This document shows positions 13,549 to 27,793 of a DNA stretch of 46,831 bases, piece by piece. Every line of letters begins with the position of its first letter. Position 1 is the first letter of the stretch. The position numbers and the translations under genes were made by a program. The notes under the pieces are model-generated. The model saw only the letters and a list, made by a program, of their open reading frames with translations, was not told the DNA's origin and did no database searches. Origin of the DNA: a bacterium (lineage in GTDB: Bacteria > Latescibacterota > Latescibacteria > Latescibacterales > Latescibacteraceae); assembly GCA_021372535.1 (NCBI GenBank), contig JAJFUH010000217.1, forward strand, positions 1 to 46,831, written 5' to 3'.

Positions 13549-13758
13549 CTAGTTGTCTTCTTTAGTAAAAATCCCTGCTGCCTTCAACAGATATTTCAAA
13601 AGACCGATTTTCAATGGTTTGTCGCCATGAACCGGTACTGATAAACGTATATTTGATCCTTGCTGACCATATATATGATGACTACCCTTTATTCTCAGTA
13701 AAGTCCACCCGTTCTTCTCGAGAATCAGTATTAATTCCTTGCCGCTCATAATGGTCAT
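13549..13758 (-). CDS. hicA: HicA-family mRNA interferase toxin
   Basis: A 69-residue double-stranded-RNA-binding-fold toxin. It shows the HicA core: [14 protein letters not shown], with the catalytic histidine in GSHH (about residues 26-29), and [23 protein letters not shown] near the C terminus. HicA toxins degrade mRNA until bound by HicB. ATG 13758 overlaps the hicB stop as ATGA, so translation is coupled; an alternative ATG lies three codons in. The order hicB-hicA is the reverse of the classical hicAB order but is also common. Confidence 0.87.
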
Positions 13759-13958
13759 ACAACAATTTCCAATATCTTATCACCAATTTTTGTATCAATG
13801 GATCGAATATCGACAGAAAGACACCCCTCAACCGCCTCATACAGATTGCCGAGCAATTCCTCGAACGTATCGCCCTGAGTTGCACAACCCTGAATTGCCG
13901 GTACCTCTGCCCAGTACCCACCTTCCTCGGCTTTGTGAATAACGACTTTCATTTTCAT
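13755..13958 (-). CDS. hicB: HicB-family antitoxin (short form)
   Basis: A 67-residue antitoxin made only of the partial RNase-H-like HicB fold: [30 protein letters not shown], then LYEAVEGCL. It has no DNA-binding tail, so it probably cannot repress its own promoter in the way long HicB proteins do (inference). A GAGGG lies nine bases before ATG 13958. It is translationally coupled to hicA by ATGA. The module is inserted between hisA and hisF, just downstream of a DUF2442 remnant. Confidence 0.85.
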
Positions 13959-14237: not shown

Positions 14238-14963
14238 TTATTCCGCCGCCTCTATCGCCTCTTTCAGGTCAAGCGTACCCTCGTAAATGGCCTTGCCGGT
14301 GATGACCGAGTCGACACCGAGCGGTTCAAACTCTTTCAGCGCCCGTATGTCCCCGAGCGATGATACTCCGCCCGACGCCACGATCTTCAGCCCCGTTTCA
14401 CGGGCCATGCGCTCCGTTTCGGCAAGGTTCGGGCCGGTGAGCATACCGTCACGGCTGATGTCGGTATAAACTATTCGCGACACACCGAGCCGTTTCATTT
14501 CGAGGCCGAGCTCGACCGCCGGACGACCGCCGTCCGCAGCCCATCCGCGTGTCGCCGCTATGCCGCCGCGGGCGTCGATGCCGACAATGATTTTTTCGGG
14601 GCCGTACATTTCGACAGCTTCTTTAACAAGGCCGGGATTTTCCACAGCGACAGTCCCGAGAATGACACGGCCGATACCCATGCCGAGGAGAGCGTCAATG
14701 CGCGCCATGTCGCGAATACCGCCGCCGAGCTCGGTGACCATATCCACATGTTCGACTATCTCACGGACAGCGCTGTCGTTGACTCCCCGACCCTCGAAAG
14801 CGCCGTTGAGGTCGACGATATGGAGTATGCGCGCCCCCGCTTCCTGCCATCTGACCGCCATAGTCCAAGGTACGCGGGCGTAGACCGTTTCATCTTCCAT
14901 CCGCCCCTGGAGGAGACGGACGCATCGCCCGTCCTTTATGTCGACCGCCGGTATGACAATCAT
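14238..14963 (-). CDS. hisA: ProFAR isomerase (phosphoribosyl-formimino-AICAR ribotide isomerase)
   Basis: A 241-residue beta/alpha barrel for the fourth step of histidine synthesis. The general base aspartate is in VIPAVDIKDGRCVRLLQG (about residue 8) and the general acid region is VYTDISRDGML (about 165-175). The phosphate-binding loops ELGGGIRD and IVASGGVSSL are intact. ATG 14963 overlaps the hisH stop as ATGA, so the two are coupled. hisF, the usual next gene, is displaced by the hicBA insertion. Confidence 0.96.
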   Translation of the reverse strand: MIVIPAVDIKDGRCVRLLQGRMEDETVYARVPWTMAVRWQEAGARILHIVDLNGAFEGRGVNDSAVREIVEHVDMVTELGGGIRDMARIDALLGMGIGRVILGTVAVENPGLVKEAVEMYGPEKIIVGIDARGGIAATRGWAADGGRPAVELGLEMKRLGVSRIVYTDISRDGMLTGPNLAETERMARETGLKIVASGGVSSLGDIRALKEFEPLGVDSVITGKAIYEGTLDLKEAIEAAE

Positions 14964-15565
14964 GAGCGTACTTTAACGAAGTTGCCGAGTATTCTGAGCC
15001 CCATCTCCTGGCTCTTTTCCGGATGAAACTGTATTCCCCAGATACGGTCACGGCCGACGATGGAGGCATACATGATGTGGTAATCGGTTTCGGCGATGGT
15101 CACATTCTCTTTTTCCGCCGGATCGACATAGTACGAATGGACAAAATAAAAGTACGAATGATCCGGTATTCCTTCCATGAGCGGGTCCTCGCGCCGTATG
15201 TGGGCCTGGTTCCAGCCGATTTGGGGAACGAGACCCTCGGTGAAAAGGCGCACTCTGCCTTTGAAAATATCGAGGCCCTTGTGGATGCCCTTTTCCTCGC
15301 CCTCCGTGAACAACACCTGGAGACCGAGGCAGATGCCTAAAAACGGGATCCCGTTCTGAACAGCCTCCCGAATCGCTTCACCAAAGCCCTGTTTCCGGAT
15401 GTTTATCATCGCATCACCGAATGCTCCGACACCGGGCAGAACGATGTGTGATGTGTCGCGAAGGTCGTCCGGCTTATCGCTTACCCGGGCAATGGCGCCG
15501 ACATGCTCGAAAGCTTTACGGACACTTCCGAGATTTGCCATGCCGTAATCTATGATCGTAACCAC
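14960..15565 (-). CDS. hisH: Imidazole glycerol phosphate synthase, glutamine amidotransferase subunit
   Basis: A 201-residue class I glutaminase that supplies ammonia to HisF. The catalytic triad is visible: cysteine in GICLGLQVLF (about residue 79) and histidine and glutamate in QFHPEKSQ (about 182-188). The N terminus ITIIDYGMANLGS-like is typical (VTIIDYGMANLGS here). The start is GTG 15565 with AAGGAG five bases upstream. Overlaps hisA by four bases. About 90 bases separate it from proC. Confidence 0.96.
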   Translation of the reverse strand: MVTIIDYGMANLGSVRKAFEHVGAIARVSDKPDDLRDTSHIVLPGVGAFGDAMINIRKQGFGEAIREAVQNGIPFLGICLGLQVLFTEGEEKGIHKGLDIFKGRVRLFTEGLVPQIGWNQAHIRREDPLMEGIPDHSYFYFVHSYYVDPAEKENVTIAETDYHIMYASIVGRDRIWGIQFHPEKSQEMGLRILGNFVKVRS

Positions 15566-15655
15566 ACTGTCTCCTTAAAAAACCTGCACCTGAAAACTCA
15601 TGGCTCAGAAATAAAAACCACGAGCAAAAAAAATCCTCTCCGGCTGAACCTGACA

Positions 15656-16459
15656 TCACTTTTTCCCGAGTGCCTCGGATTTCAGCGTCGCGGCTTCGAC
15701 AGCGCCTATGAGCGCCGCACGGAAAGCATGCGATTCGAGCACCGAGATACCCGCGATGGTCGTACCGCCCGGTGAAGTGACCATGTCGCGGAGGGCCGAG
15801 GGAGCAAGGTTCTTCTCGAGTATCATCTTTGCTGCACCGAGCACGGTCTGTGCGGCAAGCTTGAGCGCAGCCGGACGGGGAAGCCCCATCTTCACGCCGC
15901 CATCGCTCAACGCATCGATCATGATGGCGACATATGCCGGGCCGCTTCCGGAAAGCCCCGTGACCACGTCCATGAGCTTTTCGCCGACCTCGGTGACATA
16001 TCCGAGGGCGCCCATGATTTCTGTCGCTTTTCTGACATGTTCATCGGTGGCTTTTTCACCACGGCAGACAGCGCTTGCGCCCTCGCTTATCATGCAGGGA
16101 GTATTGGGCATGACACGGACAACCGGTTTATCGGGAATGATGGCCTCGATGGTCTTTGCGCTCAATCCTGCCACGATGGATATGACCAGTTTCCCCGGGG
16201 GAACATCCCTGAGTTCGTGAATAACCTCGAGGGCGATATTCGGTTTGACACCGATGATAATGGTATCGACCGCTTTCCCCAGTTCTTTGATCGAGCCTGA
16301 GATGGCGCATCCGTCGCCGCGGGCCGCTTCGTTTCTCTCCGGCGCCGTATCGTACACACAGATGCTTGAAGCCTTGTATAAACCGGCATCGATGAGACCC
16401 CTGATAATCGCGGAACCCATGTTGCCGTATCCGATAATTCCCAAGTTAACCGATTTCAT
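15656..16459 (-). CDS. proC: Pyrroline-5-carboxylate reductase
   Basis: A 267-residue enzyme for the last step of proline synthesis. The N-terminal NAD(P)-binding motif is GIIGYGNMGSAI (about residues 7-18). The dimer domain has VTGLSGSGPAYVAIMIDAL and the family signature DMVTSPGGTTIAGISVLE (about 225-242). Full length. It lies between ilvE and hisH; with proB and proA about 4 kb downstream, all three proline genes are in the same block. Confidence 0.96.
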   Translation of the reverse strand: MKSVNLGIIGYGNMGSAIIRGLIDAGLYKASSICVYDTAPERNEAARGDGCAISGSIKELGKAVDTIIIGVKPNIALEVIHELRDVPPGKLVISIVAGLSAKTIEAIIPDKPVVRVMPNTPCMISEGASAVCRGEKATDEHVRKATEIMGALGYVTEVGEKLMDVVTGLSGSGPAYVAIMIDALSDGGVKMGLPRPAALKLAAQTVLGAAKMILEKNLAPSALRDMVTSPGGTTIAGISVLESHAFRAALIGAVEAATLKSEALGKK

Positions 16460-16512
16460 GTCTATCCCCCCGGTCAGTTATCCGGTTGATTATTATGTTT
16501 AATGGCGGTTGT

Positions 16513-17433
16513 TCAAACATAGAGCAGCCATCCGTACCGGTCCTCGGCTTCGCCGGATACGATGTTGAAAAATTCCTTCTGAAGTCTGCCGGTGATCGGG
16601 CCGCGAACACCATTGCCGATTTTGACATGGTCGACTGCGCTGACCGGAGTCACTTCAGCAGCTGTGCCGGTGAAGAAAACTTCATCGGCTATATAGAGCA
16701 TTTCACGTGGAACAGGCTGCTCGAAAACCGGTATACCCATCGACTTGGCAAGGGTGATGATGGAATCGCGGGTAATCCCACGAAGAATGCTCGCAGCGGG
16801 CGATGGTGTGTATATGGCGCCGTCACGGACAATGAATATGTTTTCACCGGAGCCTTCGCTGATCATGCCGCGCGTGTCGAGGCCGATACCCTCATCGAAT
16901 CCGCTCGCCAGCGCATCGGTTTTAATGAGCTGACTGTTCATGTAATTCGCACCGACTTTTGCTATGTTGGGCATCGTGTTGGGTCCCAGACGGTTCCACG
17001 AGGACACACAGACACTGACCCCCTTTTCCAGCGCATCGGCGCCTAAATATGCGCCCCATCCCCAGACAGCTATGACGGTATCGAGCGGACAGTGCTGCGG
17101 ATTCACACCGAGCTCGCCGTATCCGCGGAAAATGATGGGCCGGATGTAACATGATTCCAACTTGTTGACCCTGATAGTTTCAAGGGTGGCATCGACAAGC
17201 TCCTGAATCGTATAGGGCGAATCGGTCCGGTAGATTTTCATGGAGTCCACGAGTCTTCTCATGTGATCGTGAATACGGAAACATGCCGGACCTTTTTGGG
17301 TCTTATAGCACCGGGCACCCTCGAAAAACGACGTACCGTAATGGATGACATGTGACAGAACATGAATTTTGGCGTCTTCCCAGTTGACAAATTTGCCGTT
17401 GAACCAGATTTTTTCGGCTTTGACCATACCCAT
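16513..17433 (-). CDS. ilvE: Branched-chain amino acid aminotransferase
   Basis: A class IV PLP aminotransferase that makes leucine, isoleucine and valine from their keto acids. The PLP lysine is in [10 protein letters not shown], and [23 protein letters not shown] is the family signature. I choose ATG 17433 (306 residues, [13 protein letters not shown]) because GAGGAG lies eight bases upstream; an ATG at 17484 would add 17 residues that do not look like the family. It appears to be the first gene of the amino-acid block. Confidence 0.95.
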
Positions 17434-17635
17434 TGAACCGTCTCCTCGGATTAAGTCTATGAATAAAGATATACGGACATTCAATTACCTTGTGATAACC
17501 ATGAATTGACAATTTTATTAATATAGTGTAAAATGAGGGTAAAATCAACGAATTGTATCATCTTGCGCCCCCCCATTTTTTTTGAAACATATCTTATGTT
17601 GATGCTTTCCTTTGTAATATCCGTCTTTTTCACTT

Positions 17636-17669: not shown

Positions 17670-18554
17670 TTAAAACATACGTGTCAATGTAATTACCGGG
17701 GTATTTTCTCCTTCTGTACGCATAGACAGTGCTGTGTGGTTTTCGATGTGCATCCACGGTATAAACCATCCGCACAGGGAGCCGAACGCCGCTCCGACTA
17801 CGACATCGGTCGGAAAGTGCTGTCCGGCCCTGACACGAAGCACCGCAGTAGCTGTGGCGCACGGAAGCCCGATACACCATACCGGCTTTGTCCATCGCGA
17901 CCCGGGATTGTATTTCTGAAACATATATCCCCCTAACACTGCGCCCTGAAACGCATTTGCGGCATGTCCCGACCACATGGACTTCGTGCCTGCCAGTGAC
18001 GTCCGTCTCTCAAGGGGGACAGCATCGTTATAGACATACGGGCGGTATCGACCGAATGTATTTTTGGCGATGTCGGTGGCACTGTTGACTATAAGGGATG
18101 CCTCTGCATAAAGCACAGCGCTCGTGACAAGGTAATACCACGATCCCTTCCGTGAGAGCGCCATTGTAAGAACCGGTGTCAGCATGGGAAGTAAATTATC
18201 GGGCTTTATGGTGACGTAGCTCCATGAGTCAGCAGAGGTGGAATAATACTTCCGCGTAAAACGGTCTATTGCAGGTATGTCGCCGGGATTCGCACGTGAC
18301 AGATTCGGCGAGGAAGAATGGTCAAGGCTGTATTGTCTCGCGATTTCCAGGCCCGCACCTGCCGTAAGGAACAGCACTTCTTTTTTGACACCGAGGTCAA
18401 AGGGCTTGCGTGTATCACCATAGCACGAGCCGGAGGGATACAGCAGTAATCCGAGCAGAAAAAGGATCACCAGATCCGAAACAGGGAATCTCATCACCCG
18501 AACCTTTATAGTGTTCGAGCAACCATGACAACGGGCTGGAATAACGGAATTCAT
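17670..18554 (-). CDS. PAP2-family phosphatase, exported or membrane-bound
   Basis: A 294-residue protein with a hydrophobic N-terminal segment (about residues 26-45). The three PAP2 motifs are recognisable: KNTFGRYRP (KX6RP), MWSGHAA (a variant of PSGH in which serine, glycine and histidine are kept) and RVRAGQHFPTD (the R...HX3D part). Such enzymes remove phosphate from lipid phosphates such as undecaprenyl diphosphate or phosphatidic acid. The acceptor here is unknown. ATG 18554 has AGGA six bases upstream; an internal ATG at 18494 would give a cleaner signal peptide. Stands apart from its neighbours. Confidence 0.82.
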   Translation of the reverse strand: MNSVIPARCHGCSNTIKVRVMRFPVSDLVILFLLGLLLYPSGSCYGDTRKPFDLGVKKEVLFLTAGAGLEIARQYSLDHSSSPNLSRANPGDIPAIDRFTRKYYSTSADSWSYVTIKPDNLLPMLTPVLTMALSRKGSWYYLVTSAVLYAEASLIVNSATDIAKNTFGRYRPYVYNDAVPLERRTSLAGTKSMWSGHAANAFQGAVLGGYMFQKYNPGSRWTKPVWCIGLPCATATAVLRVRAGQHFPTDVVVGAAFGSLCGWFIPWMHIENHTALSMRTEGENTPVITLTRMF

Positions 18555-18691: not shown

Positions 18692-19555
18692 TTATCCAGG
18701 GAAAACGGAGAAGTCCGGGTTGTCCCGTTCCCATTTTTTCAGCGAGGAATAGAGCCGGGTCTGTGAAAATTCAGCGAAACCGAAAGCGATCCGCATGATG
18801 CTGTCAATCTGTTCGTAGCTGATATTTTTCGCATGCCTGCCGCCGAATACGGTTCTGAGACCGATGGCAAGAATATGAATCATATCGTGCCCCCGGCATA
18901 CTTGCCACGGGTCATGACGGTTACTCCGGACGAGACCGGCAATCCTTAATCTGAGCTCCTCCCGGTCAAACGGGACCGTATCAGAGCTTGCCCTCACCTC
19001 TTCGATCATGTCATCGATATCCATTCTCATCGTTTTCCCCTCCGTGACAATCACCGCGGCGAACGAAATATCCCTGAATTTCAGGGAAAGATTGTCCTGT
19101 TTCGATGAGGAAATCCAACGCAGGTATCCCAATGGCAGAGCGGCATGGAGGATCATCTCGCGGATCGGACTGCCGGTTTTTCTGATCTTCTGCGCCGAAC
19201 CGAATTCCGCAAGCACGGTTTCGAGCGCTCCGGACGAGAGTATCATCGTTTCGAGGTCATGGGTATCGGTCATCAGGATGTTCACGCTGCCGGGATCGGT
19301 GCCTTCCATCCTCCAGTAGTCGCTGTCGATGACGGCAAGAATGCCGGTATACCGGTCTTTCTCGAGCACTCCCATCGCAATGAGCACATTGCTTTTCCCG
19401 TGTGCAGGAATGATACTGCACCGTTTCCTGTCGATAAAACGGCCGTATACGCGGGCATCAGAATCGCCCTCGACCATGAGCACCGTCCCGGCGTACACAG
19501 GACGCATCATGCGGATGGTATTTGCAATCTCGTGCGGAGTAAGAAACTGCTTCAT
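18692..19555 (-). CDS. DUF4435 TOPRIM-like protein, AriB-type effector of a PARIS-like system
   Basis: A 287-residue protein with a TOPRIM-type acidic core: VEGDSD (about residues 28-33, glutamate 29), AVIDSDY (about 74-80) and TDTHDLE (about 96-102). The rest is DUF4435-like. In PARIS, AriB is a DUF4435 nuclease held inactive by the AriA ATPase and released by phage anti-restriction proteins, after which it cuts host tRNA (known for characterised systems). ATG 19555 overlaps the ATPase gene's stop as ATGA. Assignment rests on the domain pair and order, not on an alignment; other ATPase-DUF4435 pairs exist. Confidence 0.75.
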   Translation of the reverse strand: MKQFLTPHEIANTIRMMRPVYAGTVLMVEGDSDARVYGRFIDRKRCSIIPAHGKSNVLIAMGVLEKDRYTGILAVIDSDYWRMEGTDPGSVNILMTDTHDLETMILSSGALETVLAEFGSAQKIRKTGSPIREMILHAALPLGYLRWISSSKQDNLSLKFRDISFAAVIVTEGKTMRMDIDDMIEEVRASSDTVPFDREELRLRIAGLVRSNRHDPWQVCRGHDMIHILAIGLRTVFGGRHAKNISYEQIDSIMRIAFGFAEFSQTRLYSSLKKWERDNPDFSVFPG

Positions 19556-20688
19556 TCGCGGGGGCCCTTCAGCTCGACTGCAAGATCCCAGCGGTCATGG
19601 ATGATCTGAGGTGAGTGCGTGGCGATGAGCACATCGAATCCTGCAAGCCCGATGATATCCTGAATATCCCTGATGAACTGCTGCTGCCAGAAAACATGGA
19701 GCGACAGCTCGGGTTCGTCGATGAGGATGAGGGAATCGGGTCTGACCTTGAAAAGCAGCTCGTAGAGGAGCACCACGACATGCTGTTCGCCCGACGAGAG
19801 GTTTTCAGGCAGCAGTTTGCGACCGTCCGACGCGATGAATATGAAACCGTCCCGCCTGCTTATCTCCATGCGTTTCTGGAGGAACCTGCTGTTGACAATC
19901 TTCATGAGGAGTTCGATTTTATCGGTAAGGTCTTTGAAAACGCTCAGTTTCTTTTCCACGTCCCCGATATATACCGACAGTACATTCATATTCGATTCAT
20001 CGATATGATCAATGACGCCCATGGTGGTTTCTTCCCGCTCAAGAAGTCCGGCATCCATGAGCCGCGCTCGTTTCACTTCGATGTCCCGAAATCTTTTCTT
20101 CAGCTCATCGAGCGACAGTCCCGTTTTATTACTTCCGGTAACAAGGCGAACGGGAAATGACCGGTCAAGGGACTGTGAAAGCGCCGCATATTCGGCAAGC
20201 TTTTTCTCGATGAGATTCCTGAGCTCCTCCGTATATTCGGTTATCGTGTACTCGTTTCCGGGGTGTGTCGAGTCTGAGAGCTGGATAAGCCGTTCCGTAT
20301 GGATGAAGCGTACATCGATGATTTCCTTCAACTCTTTGAACCAGGCCGGTTCCTCGATATGCCGATCGGGATTTTTATCAAGGAGAAACGTTTCGGGCTT
20401 CGTTCCAGGTCTGGTGAATTCAAAAAACAGCTCATCGCCGTTATCGTTCCTGCGTTTTCTGAGACCGAGCATTCCACCATCGTCGAAATCAACACACACA
20501 TCGCTGAACGGGATTCGGTAGAAATCCTCGTACCCGGGATTAAAAAGCTCGTTGACGAGGGTGAGGGTGAATGTTTTTCCGAATCCGTTCGGGCCGTAAA
20601 TAATCGTTATCCGTTCGCCGGTGTTGAGCGGTATCTCGTGATTGAATATCCCGAACAGGTTTTTAACCGATATATGCCGTATTCTCAT
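19552..20688 (-). CDS. AAA/ABC-type ATPase, AriA-like sensor of a PARIS-like system
   Basis: A 378-residue ATPase of the SMC/OLD-like class. Walker A is GPNGFGKT (residues 32-39), the ABC signature LSSGEQH (297-303), Walker B LILIDEPELSLH (320-331), and the switch histidine lies in IATHSPQII (355-363). Between them is a helical insert (about 110-270). In PARIS, AriA forms a scaffold that binds AriB. I choose ATG 20688 because AAGGA lies six bases upstream and the protein then begins MRIRHISVKNLFG; an ATG at 20733 lacks these. It is the first gene of a two-gene operon with the DUF4435 gene. Confidence 0.8.
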   Translation of the reverse strand: MRIRHISVKNLFGIFNHEIPLNTGERITIIYGPNGFGKTFTLTLVNELFNPGYEDFYRIPFSDVCVDFDDGGMLGLRKRRNDNGDELFFEFTRPGTKPETFLLDKNPDRHIEEPAWFKELKEIIDVRFIHTERLIQLSDSTHPGNEYTITEYTEELRNLIEKKLAEYAALSQSLDRSFPVRLVTGSNKTGLSLDELKKRFRDIEVKRARLMDAGLLEREETTMGVIDHIDESNMNVLSVYIGDVEKKLSVFKDLTDKIELLMKIVNSRFLQKRMEISRRDGFIFIASDGRKLLPENLSSGEQHVVVLLYELLFKVRPDSLILIDEPELSLHVFWQQQFIRDIQDIIGLAGFDVLIATHSPQIIHDRWDLAVELKGPRE

Positions 20689-20798
20689 ACACTGTCCTTT
20701 CATCTGCCATATGCAGTTTGTAAGGAAATCCATTACGGCGCTGAATGCAATATTTTTTTCGGAAACGATTTATCCCGGCTATTTACAGATGCAAAGGA

Positions 20799-20839
20799 AC
20801 GCTGATTTACGCGGATTGGGCGGATATAAGCGGATAAAT
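20799..20839 (+). repeat. Partial copy of the CGCGGAT-type repeat upstream of the PARIS-like operon
   Basis: Reads AACGCTGATTTACGCGGATT followed by GGGCGGATATAAGCGGAT. This matches the first end of composite repeat copies A and B; the TTCGTGTC end is absent. It lies about 110 bases upstream of the ATPase gene start. The rest of 20689-21040 is AT-rich, and I see no other gene in it. Confidence 0.6.
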
Positions 20840-21040
20840 ATTGTTAAAATAATTATTGTAATACATAAAGTTCCTTATGCTTTAATAAATAATATGTTAT
20901 AAATCATCACGATTTCGCGAAAAATTACAGTCATGAAATATCCAAGTTAATTTTCTCTTGTGTCAACTGCTGAAACATGGTATTTTTGCGCCTCAATAAT
21001 TCGGAAGGTAACAGTTTTACTTATAATAGAGTTATAATTC

Positions 21041-21370
21041 TTGAAAACAGTCATCCTTTTAACCATATCCAACATCTTCATGACATTCGCCTGGTACGGG
21101 CATCTCAAGCACAAGAATAAGGCGCTCTGGGTTGTTATTCTCGTGAGCTGGATGATAGCGTTCTTTGAATACTGTTTCCAGGTTCCCGCTAACCGTATCG
21201 GTCACGCCTCTTTCACCGCCGCACAGCTCAAGACCATTCAGGAGGTTATCACGCTCGTTGTGTTCAGCGTCTTTTCGGTGCTGTACCTCCGTGAGGAGTT
21301 CAAGTGGAATTACCTTGTCGGTTTTCTCTTCATGATCTGCGCCGTGTTCTTCGTCTTTAAAAAATGGTAA
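21041..21370 (+). CDS. DUF486 (DMT-like) membrane protein
   Basis: A 109-residue protein with four hydrophobic segments. It matches the DUF486 family: ISNIFMTFAWYGHLK at the N terminus, EYCFQVPANRIG in the middle and FSVLYLREEFKWNYLVGFLF near the end. It resembles half-size drug/metabolite transporters, and its role is unknown. The start is TTG 21041, because an in-frame TAA lies two codons upstream and the family begins exactly there. A TATAAT at 21022-21027 lies only 14 bases before the start, so the 5' leader may be very short. No partner gene adjacent. Confidence 0.85.
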   Translation: MKTVILLTISNIFMTFAWYGHLKHKNKALWVVILVSWMIAFFEYCFQVPANRIGHASFTAAQLKTIQEVITLVVFSVFSVLYLREEFKWNYLVGFLFMICAVFFVFKKW

Positions 21371-26557: not shown

Positions 26558-27793
26558 ATGCATTATAGTGAAAACCTGACTTTAGGACTCGAAGGCCTTC
26601 GGACTCATTTACTCCGGTCGCTCCTTACCATGCTCGGTATTATTTTCGGTGTGGGTGCTGTTATAGCTATGCTCTCGATCGGCGAAGGCGCAAAACAGCA
26701 GGCCCTTGAACAGATACAGCTTATGGGTATGCGTAATATCATCGTGCAGGATATCCCTATCGAGGACAAGGAAACGGGCCTGGGACGATCTAACCTTTCG
26801 CGGGGCCTCCGGTGGGCTGATGCGCGTGCGGTCGAGGAAGTTAATCCGCTCGTTGAACTCACCGTACCCCAGCGTGAAATGACTCTTGACATCACATATA
26901 AAACCGAGCGGACCAAAACATCGATTGTCGGAACGACACCTGAATATGGCCCGGTGCTGAATTATACCCCCCGTGAAGGCACTTTTTTTACTTATCTCGA
27001 TGTCGATGAATCGAGAAGGGTGTGTGTGCTCGGAGGCGGCATCAAGCGGAAACTCTTTTTCTTCCATGAGCCGCTCGGCGAACAGGTTAAAATCAGCAAT
27101 CAGTGGTTTACCGTTGTTGGTGTTATGGAAGATAAAATCGAATCGGGCGGCGGGAAAACCGATCTCCCGATCCGCGACATGAACATGGATGTCTACATTC
27201 CCATTACGACATCCATGAAACGGTTCCCCATGCAGCCGTTCGAGAGTGAGCTCAACCGCTTTGTCGCCCTTGTCAATGATACCGAAAAAATCCAGGAAGC
27301 CGCAAATATCATCAAACACACCATGGACCGCCGTCATAATGGTATCATCGATTATAACATCGTCATTCCCGAATCGCTGCTCCGCCAAAGCCAGCAGACC
27401 CAGCGCATCTTCAACATCGTCATGGGAGCGATCGCAAGCATATCCCTTCTCGTGGGCGGTATCGGCATCATGAACATCATGCTCGCCTCCGTTCTCGAAC
27501 GAACCCGTGAAATAGGAATCCGGCGGGCAGTCGGCGCCACACGGAAGGACATTCTCGGGCAGTTCCTGTTCGAGGCGGTCGTGCTGAGCTTCACCGGCGG
27601 ACTCATCGGTATCATGGTCGGATTTTCTCTGACCAAGATCATTTCCATGTACGCGAACTGGCGGACCCTTGTATCGTTGCAGGCAATTTTCCTTGCTTTC
27701 TGGGTTTCCGTGGCGGTAGGTATTATCTTCGGATATTATCCTGCCCGGCGGGCTGCACAACAGGAACCAATAGAATCTTTACGGTATGAATAA
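26558..27793 (+). CDS. MacB-type ABC transporter permease (FtsX fold), no ATPase domain
   Basis: A 411-residue permease. One membrane helix near the N terminus (LLTMLGIIFGVGAVIAML, about residues 24-41) precedes a large periplasmic domain (about 45-280), and three helices lie at the C terminus. The conserved cytoplasmic loop reads ERTREIGIRRAVGATRKDIL. MacB-family transporters drive shape changes in the periplasm that push substrates through TolC. MacB itself has an N-terminal ATPase; here there is none, and no ATPase gene lies in the operon, so the nucleotide-binding subunit must come from elsewhere or the system works differently. Confidence 0.92.
   Translation: MHYSENLTLGLEGLRTHLLRSLLTMLGIIFGVGAVIAMLSIGEGAKQQALEQIQLMGMRNIIVQDIPIEDKETGLGRSNLSRGLRWADARAVEEVNPLVELTVPQREMTLDITYKTERTKTSIVGTTPEYGPVLNYTPREGTFFTYLDVDESRRVCVLGGGIKRKLFFFHEPLGEQVKISNQWFTVVGVMEDKIESGGGKTDLPIRDMNMDVYIPITTSMKRFPMQPFESELNRFVALVNDTEKIQEAANIIKHTMDRRHNGIIDYNIVIPESLLRQSQQTQRIFNIVMGAIASISLLVGGIGIMNIMLASVLERTREIGIRRAVGATRKDILGQFLFEAVVLSFTGGLIGIMVGFSLTKIISMYANWRTLVSLQAIFLAFWVSVAVGIIFGYYPARRAAQQEPIESLRYE

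Follow-up and report, generated by a model that had tools for sequence, protein, structure and literature searches.

The gene pair and its conserved motifs

The window, by which we mean the whole stretch of 46,831 nucleotides that was analysed, carries two adjacent genes on the minus strand between positions 18,692 and 20,688. The genes and their features are given below, with the evidence for each in parentheses.

19552..20688, minus strand: first gene, AriA-like ATPase of the ABC/OLD type, 378 residues (open reading frame, PADLOC, Pfam, PDB sequence and fold matches)
20572..20595, minus strand: Walker A, GPNGFGKT, ATPase residues 32–39 (sequence and conservation)
20290..20487, minus strand: variable middle module of the ATPase, residues 68–133, 66 residues (alignment of 17 ATPases)
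19780..19800, minus strand: ABC signature LSSGEQH, ATPase residues 297–303 (LSSGE invariant in 17 of 17)
19708..19731, minus strand: Walker B, LILIDEPE, ATPase residues 320–327 (DEPE invariant in 17 of 17)
19552..19555, minus strand: ATGA overlap of the start and stop codons of the ATPase and DUF4435 genes (sequence)
18692..19555, minus strand: second gene, putative AriB-like DUF4435 TOPRIM nuclease, 287 residues (open reading frame, PADLOC, Pfam, fold)
19457..19474, minus strand: TOPRIM motif VEGDSD, AriB-like residues 28–33 (alignment; E29 falls in the column of E. coli AriB E26)
19319..19333, minus strand: TOPRIM motif VIDSD, AriB-like residues 75–79 (alignment)
19250..19270, minus strand: TDTHDLE, AriB-like residues 96–102 (E102 in 23 of 23 alignment rows)
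18884..18898, minus strand: C-terminal CRGHD, AriB-like residues 220–224 (G222 in 23 of 23 rows, H223 in 21 of 23)

The first-pass annotation had described an ATPase with these Walker and signature motifs, followed through an ATGA overlap by a DUF4435 protein with a TOPRIM acidic core. All of these elements were located: the ATPase motifs lie in an open frame of the minus strand, the overlap is at 19552–19555 and the TOPRIM residues (E29, D33, D77, D79, D100 and E102) are in place. Across the alignment of 17 ATPases, N34, G35, G37, K38 and T39, together with LSSGE, DEPE and H358 (within a THSP stretch at residues 357–360), are invariant, and P33 is kept in 16. The 23-row alignment of AriB proteins keeps E29, D77, E102 and G222 in every row and D33 in 22. 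Because they are conserved across both alignments, the ATPase and TOPRIM motifs are not chance occurrences. The ATGA overlap suggests that translation of the two genes may be coupled. An alternative in-frame start of the ATPase at 20733 is possible; the related ATPases of a Poribacteria genome and of Laspinema (L005 and L006), however, share the MRI stretch found at the 20688 start and line up from there.

Profiles, predicted folds and membership in PARIS

The published detection rule for PARIS combines AAA_15 at 32 or AAA_21 at 27 with DUF4435 at 27 (Rousset et al., 2022; PMC9122126). The ATPase scores 68.6 bits against AAA_21 (cut-off 27) and 66.3 bits against AAA_15 (cut-off 32.1), and the second protein scores 43.7 bits against DUF4435 (cut-off 27), so that the rule identifies the pair as PARIS. 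The layout is also that of PARIS, with the ATPase and TOPRIM genes adjacent on one strand and overlapping by ATGA. In PADLOC the AriB profile matches the TOPRIM protein with an E value of 1.3e-21 (75.9 bits; a B185-type AriB scores only 39.2 bits) and two AriA profiles match the ATPase (7.3e-23 and 3.5e-20). For the ATPase, one PtuA profile narrowly outranks AriA (1.4e-23 versus 7.3e-23). Other AriA-like ATPases that are partnered with DUF4435 proteins receive similar PtuA scores, and the tie is therefore uninformative.

The best sequence match of the ATPase alone in the PDB is AriA (1.1e-14), and a profile of 11 ATPases, that of the window included, aligns with positions 3–423 of the solved AriA (E value of 3.3e-31), the first chain other than AriA being PtuA (5.3e-17). 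No AriB chain was found in the PDB by sequence from the TOPRIM protein (P0001) or from the profiles A1 and A5, and the top PDB matches of the TOPRIM-protein profiles are designed TIM barrels. Protein queries from L039 and L013 likewise missed the B185 AriB in the PDB. Among the PHROGs the pair matches viral families of unknown function, phrog_7507 (1.4e-49) and phrog_20954 (2.2e-27).

The structure predicted for the TOPRIM protein (pLDDT of 92.6 from 12 sequences) aligns with that of AriB (8ux9_A; Z of 15.9 and r.m.s.d. of 4.2 for 255 of 287 residues). With Foldseek the only matches below 0.001 are AriB chains (9.7e-6 and 1.7e-5), the next match being at 0.25, and the best entry outside PARIS is an OLD domain (Z of 7.3). 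The model of the ATPase (pLDDT of 83.0, with two weak stretches) aligns with AriA (8v46_C; Z of 25.7 and r.m.s.d. of 4.1 for 356 of 378 residues); its first 16 Foldseek rows are chains of PARIS entries, and the best entries outside PARIS are Smc5/6 (Z of 16.4, r.m.s.d. of 10.3) and PtuA (Z of 16.2). Both the AriA fold and an AriB fold with the catalytic glutamate of the TOPRIM domain in the E29/E26 column (23 of 23 rows) are thus present. By rule and by fold, the pair is PARIS; we regard it as a well supported, sequence-divergent representative. The domain pair and gene order of PARIS, which the first-pass annotation had recognized from the sequence, are borne out by the detection rule, the PADLOC profiles and AriA and AriB as the best folds.

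Relatives, distribution and genomic setting

In the 26 loci where both genes are present (L003–L007, L015–L019, L028–L035, L037–L039, L083, L084 and L086–L088, several of which are near-copies), the ATPase gene comes first and the DUF4435 gene second, on one strand. This order holds for pairs of bacteria and of one archaeon as well as for those on plasmids and in phages; among the exceptions are L036, which is cut, and L013 and L014, which are ambiguous. The ATPase and AriB tree distances of 17 pairs correlate with an r of 0.894, which was reached in none of 10,000 permutations (shared host history being uncontrolled), and such agreement is expected of partners that move together. Two loci of the same phylum differ in layout: L011 193–2289 is a one-gene ORF spanning the ATPase and an AriB-profile match, which looks like a fusion, and L012 1012–2661 is probably a one-gene ATPase–TOPRIM ORF of the same kind. 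On a viral contig (L085 3983–5368) a B185-type AriA has no AriB-like ORF of at least 80 residues listed beside it.

The pairs of Poribacteria (L005), Laspinema (L006) and a Methanomassiliicoccales archaeon (L007) are among the nearest relatives (35–43% identity for AriB and 39–51% for AriA). Their ATPases are longer, at 436–460 residues with a middle module of 125–132 residues, compared with 378 and 66 residues in the window. The Poribacteria genome has a second, separate DUF4435 match at G064:C1:466605-466988. Pairs from an enterobacterial plasmid, P2-like phages and other viral contigs (L015, L019, L029–L034, L037 and L038) lie on the same side of the B185 split as the window pair, with the same gene order, and share its T-D-x-H-D-[LV]-E and C-x-G-H-D motifs. 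Identity between the window pair and L015, L019, L031, L032 and L038 is 22–25% for AriB and 33–34% for AriA; these five pairs reside in mobile elements, whereas the window pair does not visibly do so. In a Yersinia P2-like phage a related pair lies between the CI repressor and the integrase, and the IMG/VR contigs L029–L031 resemble this phage setting as judged by eye. The L032 pair is present in 13 of 5,426 E. coli genomes; a search of E. coli genomes for the pair L015, from a Salmonella plasmid, gave no match. On another viral contig (L035 5395–8358) a gene of 987 residues follows the ATPase–DUF4435 pair. We take its product to be SIR2-like, which suggests that this pair and its neighbour form a small defence cluster.

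Within the phylum the distribution is patchy. The AriB profile matches in seven of 64 genomes, three of them strongly, including the host itself, and a close relative of the AriB-like protein is found in the host genome and in two of 59 others. None of the other three family genomes analysed (G001, G002 and G003) has a close AriB relative, and for the ATPase only a weak partial match of 24.6 bits was found, in G003. A gene of the window that we take to encode a glycyl-tRNA synthetase was detected in six of ten genomes (strongly in G001, G003, G006 and G023, partially in the archaeon G066 and weakly in G064, the Poribacteria genome with L005; not in G005, G009, G044 or G065), and it gives no placement for the Poribacteria locus. 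The lineage-wide conservation that a housekeeping role would predict was not observed (three of 64 phylum genomes, the host included). The congener G001 retains the genes of window positions 14238–17484 at 68–86% identity, after which a different gene occupies the 1.1 kb remaining on its contig; the HlyD/FtsX-like genes found from 23413 onwards in the window sit on another G001 contig. Synteny thus breaks around the unit, and this part of the sequence varies among relatives.

The first-pass annotation had also placed the pair in a chromosomal setting without neighbouring phage genes, and the surroundings are indeed chromosome-like. Eight neighbours scanned against Pfam comprise an aminotransferase, PAP2, DMT_6, CN_hydrolase, two HlyD-type proteins and a HicA/HicB-like pair. 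The neighbour scans (eight proteins in Pfam, nine in PADLOC and four in PHROGs) brought up neither defence genes nor phage hallmarks. A LolE-like permease at 26558–27793 matches two CARF-LolE profiles in PADLOC, which we attribute to the shared permease part, and two phrog matches of the CN_hydrolase neighbour were taken as generic. The HicA toxin (63.6 bits) and its HicB-like/UPF0150 partner lie at 13549–13958 on the minus strand, 5 kb from the unit, flanked by genes that we take to be histidine-biosynthesis-like. Elsewhere in the host genome there is only one N6_Mtase match (PF02384; G000:C37:897-1466), in a frame of 795 residues.

The CGCGGAT repeat noted upstream of the unit in the first-pass annotation exists, at about 20800–20837, but has no bearing on the unit. 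A search of the host genome with a 16-base core pattern and up to two mismatches found the CGCGGATTGNGCGGAT repeat interspersed throughout (86 + 71 = 157 matches, against none for the reversed control). The repeat therefore does not mark the locus and was rejected as a part of the PARIS unit. Recent insertion was rejected on composition, the GC content of the locus being within the range of its surroundings. An inverted pair of 16 nt (94%) at 18126–18141 and 21304–21319 flanks the unit from within the two adjacent genes and was attributed to chance. There is no tRNA in the window. Promoter-like sites are at chance level (four found, 3.9 expected), one of them (10/12) being upstream of the ATPase at 20966–20937, and the seven terminator-like sites (2.6 expected) are spread over the two strands, most of them within genes. 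We therefore assign the unit no promoter or terminator of its own.

Distance from E. coli B185 and the proposed mechanism

The prototype, PARIS of E. coli B185 (AriA–AriB; PDB entries 8ux9 and 8v45–8v49), is triggered by Ocr and cuts tRNA-Lys, tRNA-Thr and tRNA-Asn. The window pair has in common with it the predicted folds of both subunits, the Walker and TOPRIM residues (including the correspondence of E26 with E29) and the C-terminal RGH, and its gene order is that of the B185 relatives L083, L084, L086 and L087. Identity on structural alignment is low, at about 17–21% for AriA and 12–15% for AriB. The B185-type pairs were gathered via the AriA of B185, and they represent the prototype since L086 finds the solved AriB at 6.2e-70.

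Trees were built from 24 ATPases and 23 AriB proteins, unrooted and without an outgroup. Near-copies and close kin (L029, L030, L033, L034 and L037), the cut locus L036, fusions or weak matches (L011–L014) and repeats of other loci (L008–L010) were dropped. In both unrooted trees a clade of B185, L039 and L088 excludes the window pair (0.989 and 0.995), which joins L005 and L006 (0.989 and 0.877). The first-pass annotation had held that the PARIS label would fail if the ATPase aligned with RecF/OLD housekeeping proteins and the DUF4435 protein clustered away from AriB. The ATPase aligns over its full length with AriA and not with RecF/OLD; the DUF4435 protein does fall outside the clade of B185 AriB, but its profile match and its fold both keep it in the AriB family. 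A profile–profile comparison of the two AriB types gives a weak and partial match (E value of 1.8e-4, probability of 48%, 120 columns in the TOPRIM half). Against Pfam DUF4435 the Salmonella plasmid protein L015 scores 213 bits and the window protein 43.7 bits, while the B185-type L086 has no match under 0.001; it is therefore less the window protein than the B185 type that departs from the Pfam family.

The two types also differ around the active site. The second TOPRIM motif is D-x-D in the window protein and 17 other rows (18 of 23) and D-x-E in the five B185-type AriB proteins, and the spacing from the catalytic glutamate to the aspartate is 62 residues in B185 AriB compared with 48 in the window. 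The extra part of B185 AriB in this interval is where K60 and K64 are located. In E. coli AriB these two lysines are described as holding the tRNA anticodon loop, and their change to alanine as abolishing defence; the E26A change removed the cleavage products (PMC12409363). No lysine pair of the window protein was aligned with the K60/K64 segment, the alignment between the glutamate and aspartate anchors being uncertain. K54, at the start of the following helix and a lysine in 15 of 23 rows, may stand in for K60/K64, although this is a guess.

Three other readings of the locus were weighed. The pair might be a PARIS-like sensor and effector whose TOPRIM protein cuts DNA, as OLD and GajA do, and not tRNA. 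The D-x-D of its second motif, where the B185 type has D-x-E, and the lack of a clear counterpart to the tRNA-gripping segment are both in its favour, and outside PARIS the best folds for the TOPRIM protein are OLD nucleases (Z of 6.4–7.3). The OLD matches span only 122–165 residues, however, and the AriB match is far better and full-length, so that we consider DNA cleavage unlikely.

Septu PtuAB, Gabija GajAB and class 1 OLD likewise join an ABC/OLD ATPase to a nuclease, and the comparable PtuA and AriA scores of the ATPase would suit a Septu-, Gabija- or retron-type system, or a class 1 OLD protein split in two. The partner here is a DUF4435 protein, whereas that of Septu is the HNH protein PtuB; Gabija has a fused ATPase–TOPRIM protein and a UvrD-like helicase, and OLD and Gabija are described with another nuclease or a fused TOPRIM domain (PMC10568477), unlike the separate genes of the window. 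The eight neighbours scanned against Pfam include no HNH protein, helicase or reverse transcriptase. All three systems match the window proteins less well in fold than PARIS does (for the ATPase, Z of 25.7 to AriA versus 16.2 to PtuA), which makes such an assignment very improbable. We give as little credence to the view that the ATPase is a housekeeping repair protein aided by the nuclease, whether RecF/Rad50-like or resembling the archaeal OLD-family Cran1 as described. The generic similarity to ABC/SMC heads and the chromosomal neighbours would fit such a role; the absence of close relatives from the congener and the family (save the weak ATPase match in G003), the patchy distribution, the relatives in phages and plasmids and the failure to find conservation in most members of the phylum all argue against it. 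In the literature, such pairs are filed under OLD-ABC plus TOPRIM systems in PMC12839542, IbfA is described as a one-gene ATPase–TOPRIM defence protein (PMC12111858) and shared domains are reviewed in PMC10952713; the last two papers bring no decisive argument to the window pair.

Returning to PARIS, AriA hexamers of the E. coli system are reported to hold AriB until it is freed by a phage protein, of which Ocr and Ptr1/Ptr2 of T5 are examples, whereupon an AriB dimer cuts tRNA (PMC11455837; PMC12409363). Several PARIS triggers are therefore already known. In the PARIS of a Salmonella BREX island, an ATPase–DUF4435 pair (PMC9009780), neither Ocr nor Gp5 is described as raising activity and none of the phages tested there as being affected (PMC11341690). 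The window pair is probably a divergent two-gene PARIS module in which an AriA-like ATPase holds an AriB-like RNase until a phage trigger leads to abortive infection. By analogy with the E. coli system, the ATPase assembly would keep the TOPRIM protein inactive, and a phage protein made during infection would bind the ATPase and release it. The freed TOPRIM protein would then cut host RNA, most likely tRNA, and growth would stop before the phage matures. Release of a held nuclease is the likeliest mechanism because of the folds and the catalytic residues; the trigger and the exact RNA target may differ from those of E. coli B185, as the first-pass annotation had suggested for the trigger, where the support is indirect.

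One part of the ATPase, the middle module, varies greatly in length and is for that reason a candidate for the sensor. It has 66 residues here, compared with 122–132 in the five nearest relatives and 55–119 in the other 11 of the 17 rows; it is the shortest of its clade, and among the 17 rows only that of the Aliivibrio ATPase (55) is shorter. The interval corresponding to window residues 93–133 ranges from 31 to 101 residues across the 17 ATPases. The short module may result from an assembly error. A more speculative proposal, which we hold to be possible but somewhat doubtful, is that PARIS comprises two or more ancient lineages with a common sensor–nuclease chassis that differ in trigger and RNA target. 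The window pair would then belong to the side that lacks the tRNA-gripping lysines of B185, with the fast-changing middle module of its ATPase as an exchangeable sensor, shortened here, that answers to something other than Ocr, and with a nuclease that cuts another RNA.

Taken as a whole, the pair genuinely belongs to the PARIS family, as a member that was largely to be expected. A literature search on DUF4435 and AriA/AriB/PARIS found no paper that names the window's side as distinct from B185; most subscription papers lay outside this search, and the newness of this side is therefore weakly evidenced. The pair extends PARIS to a sparsely sampled phylum (64 genomes) by predicted fold, beyond profile score, and it represents a side of the family without a clear counterpart of the one tRNA-contact segment that was tested in E. 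coli. If the trigger or the target does differ, the study of B185 alone would understate what PARIS senses and cuts. Such a difference could bear on the unexplained failure of the BREX-island PARIS of Salmonella to respond to Ocr (PMC11341690), if that system belongs to the same side.
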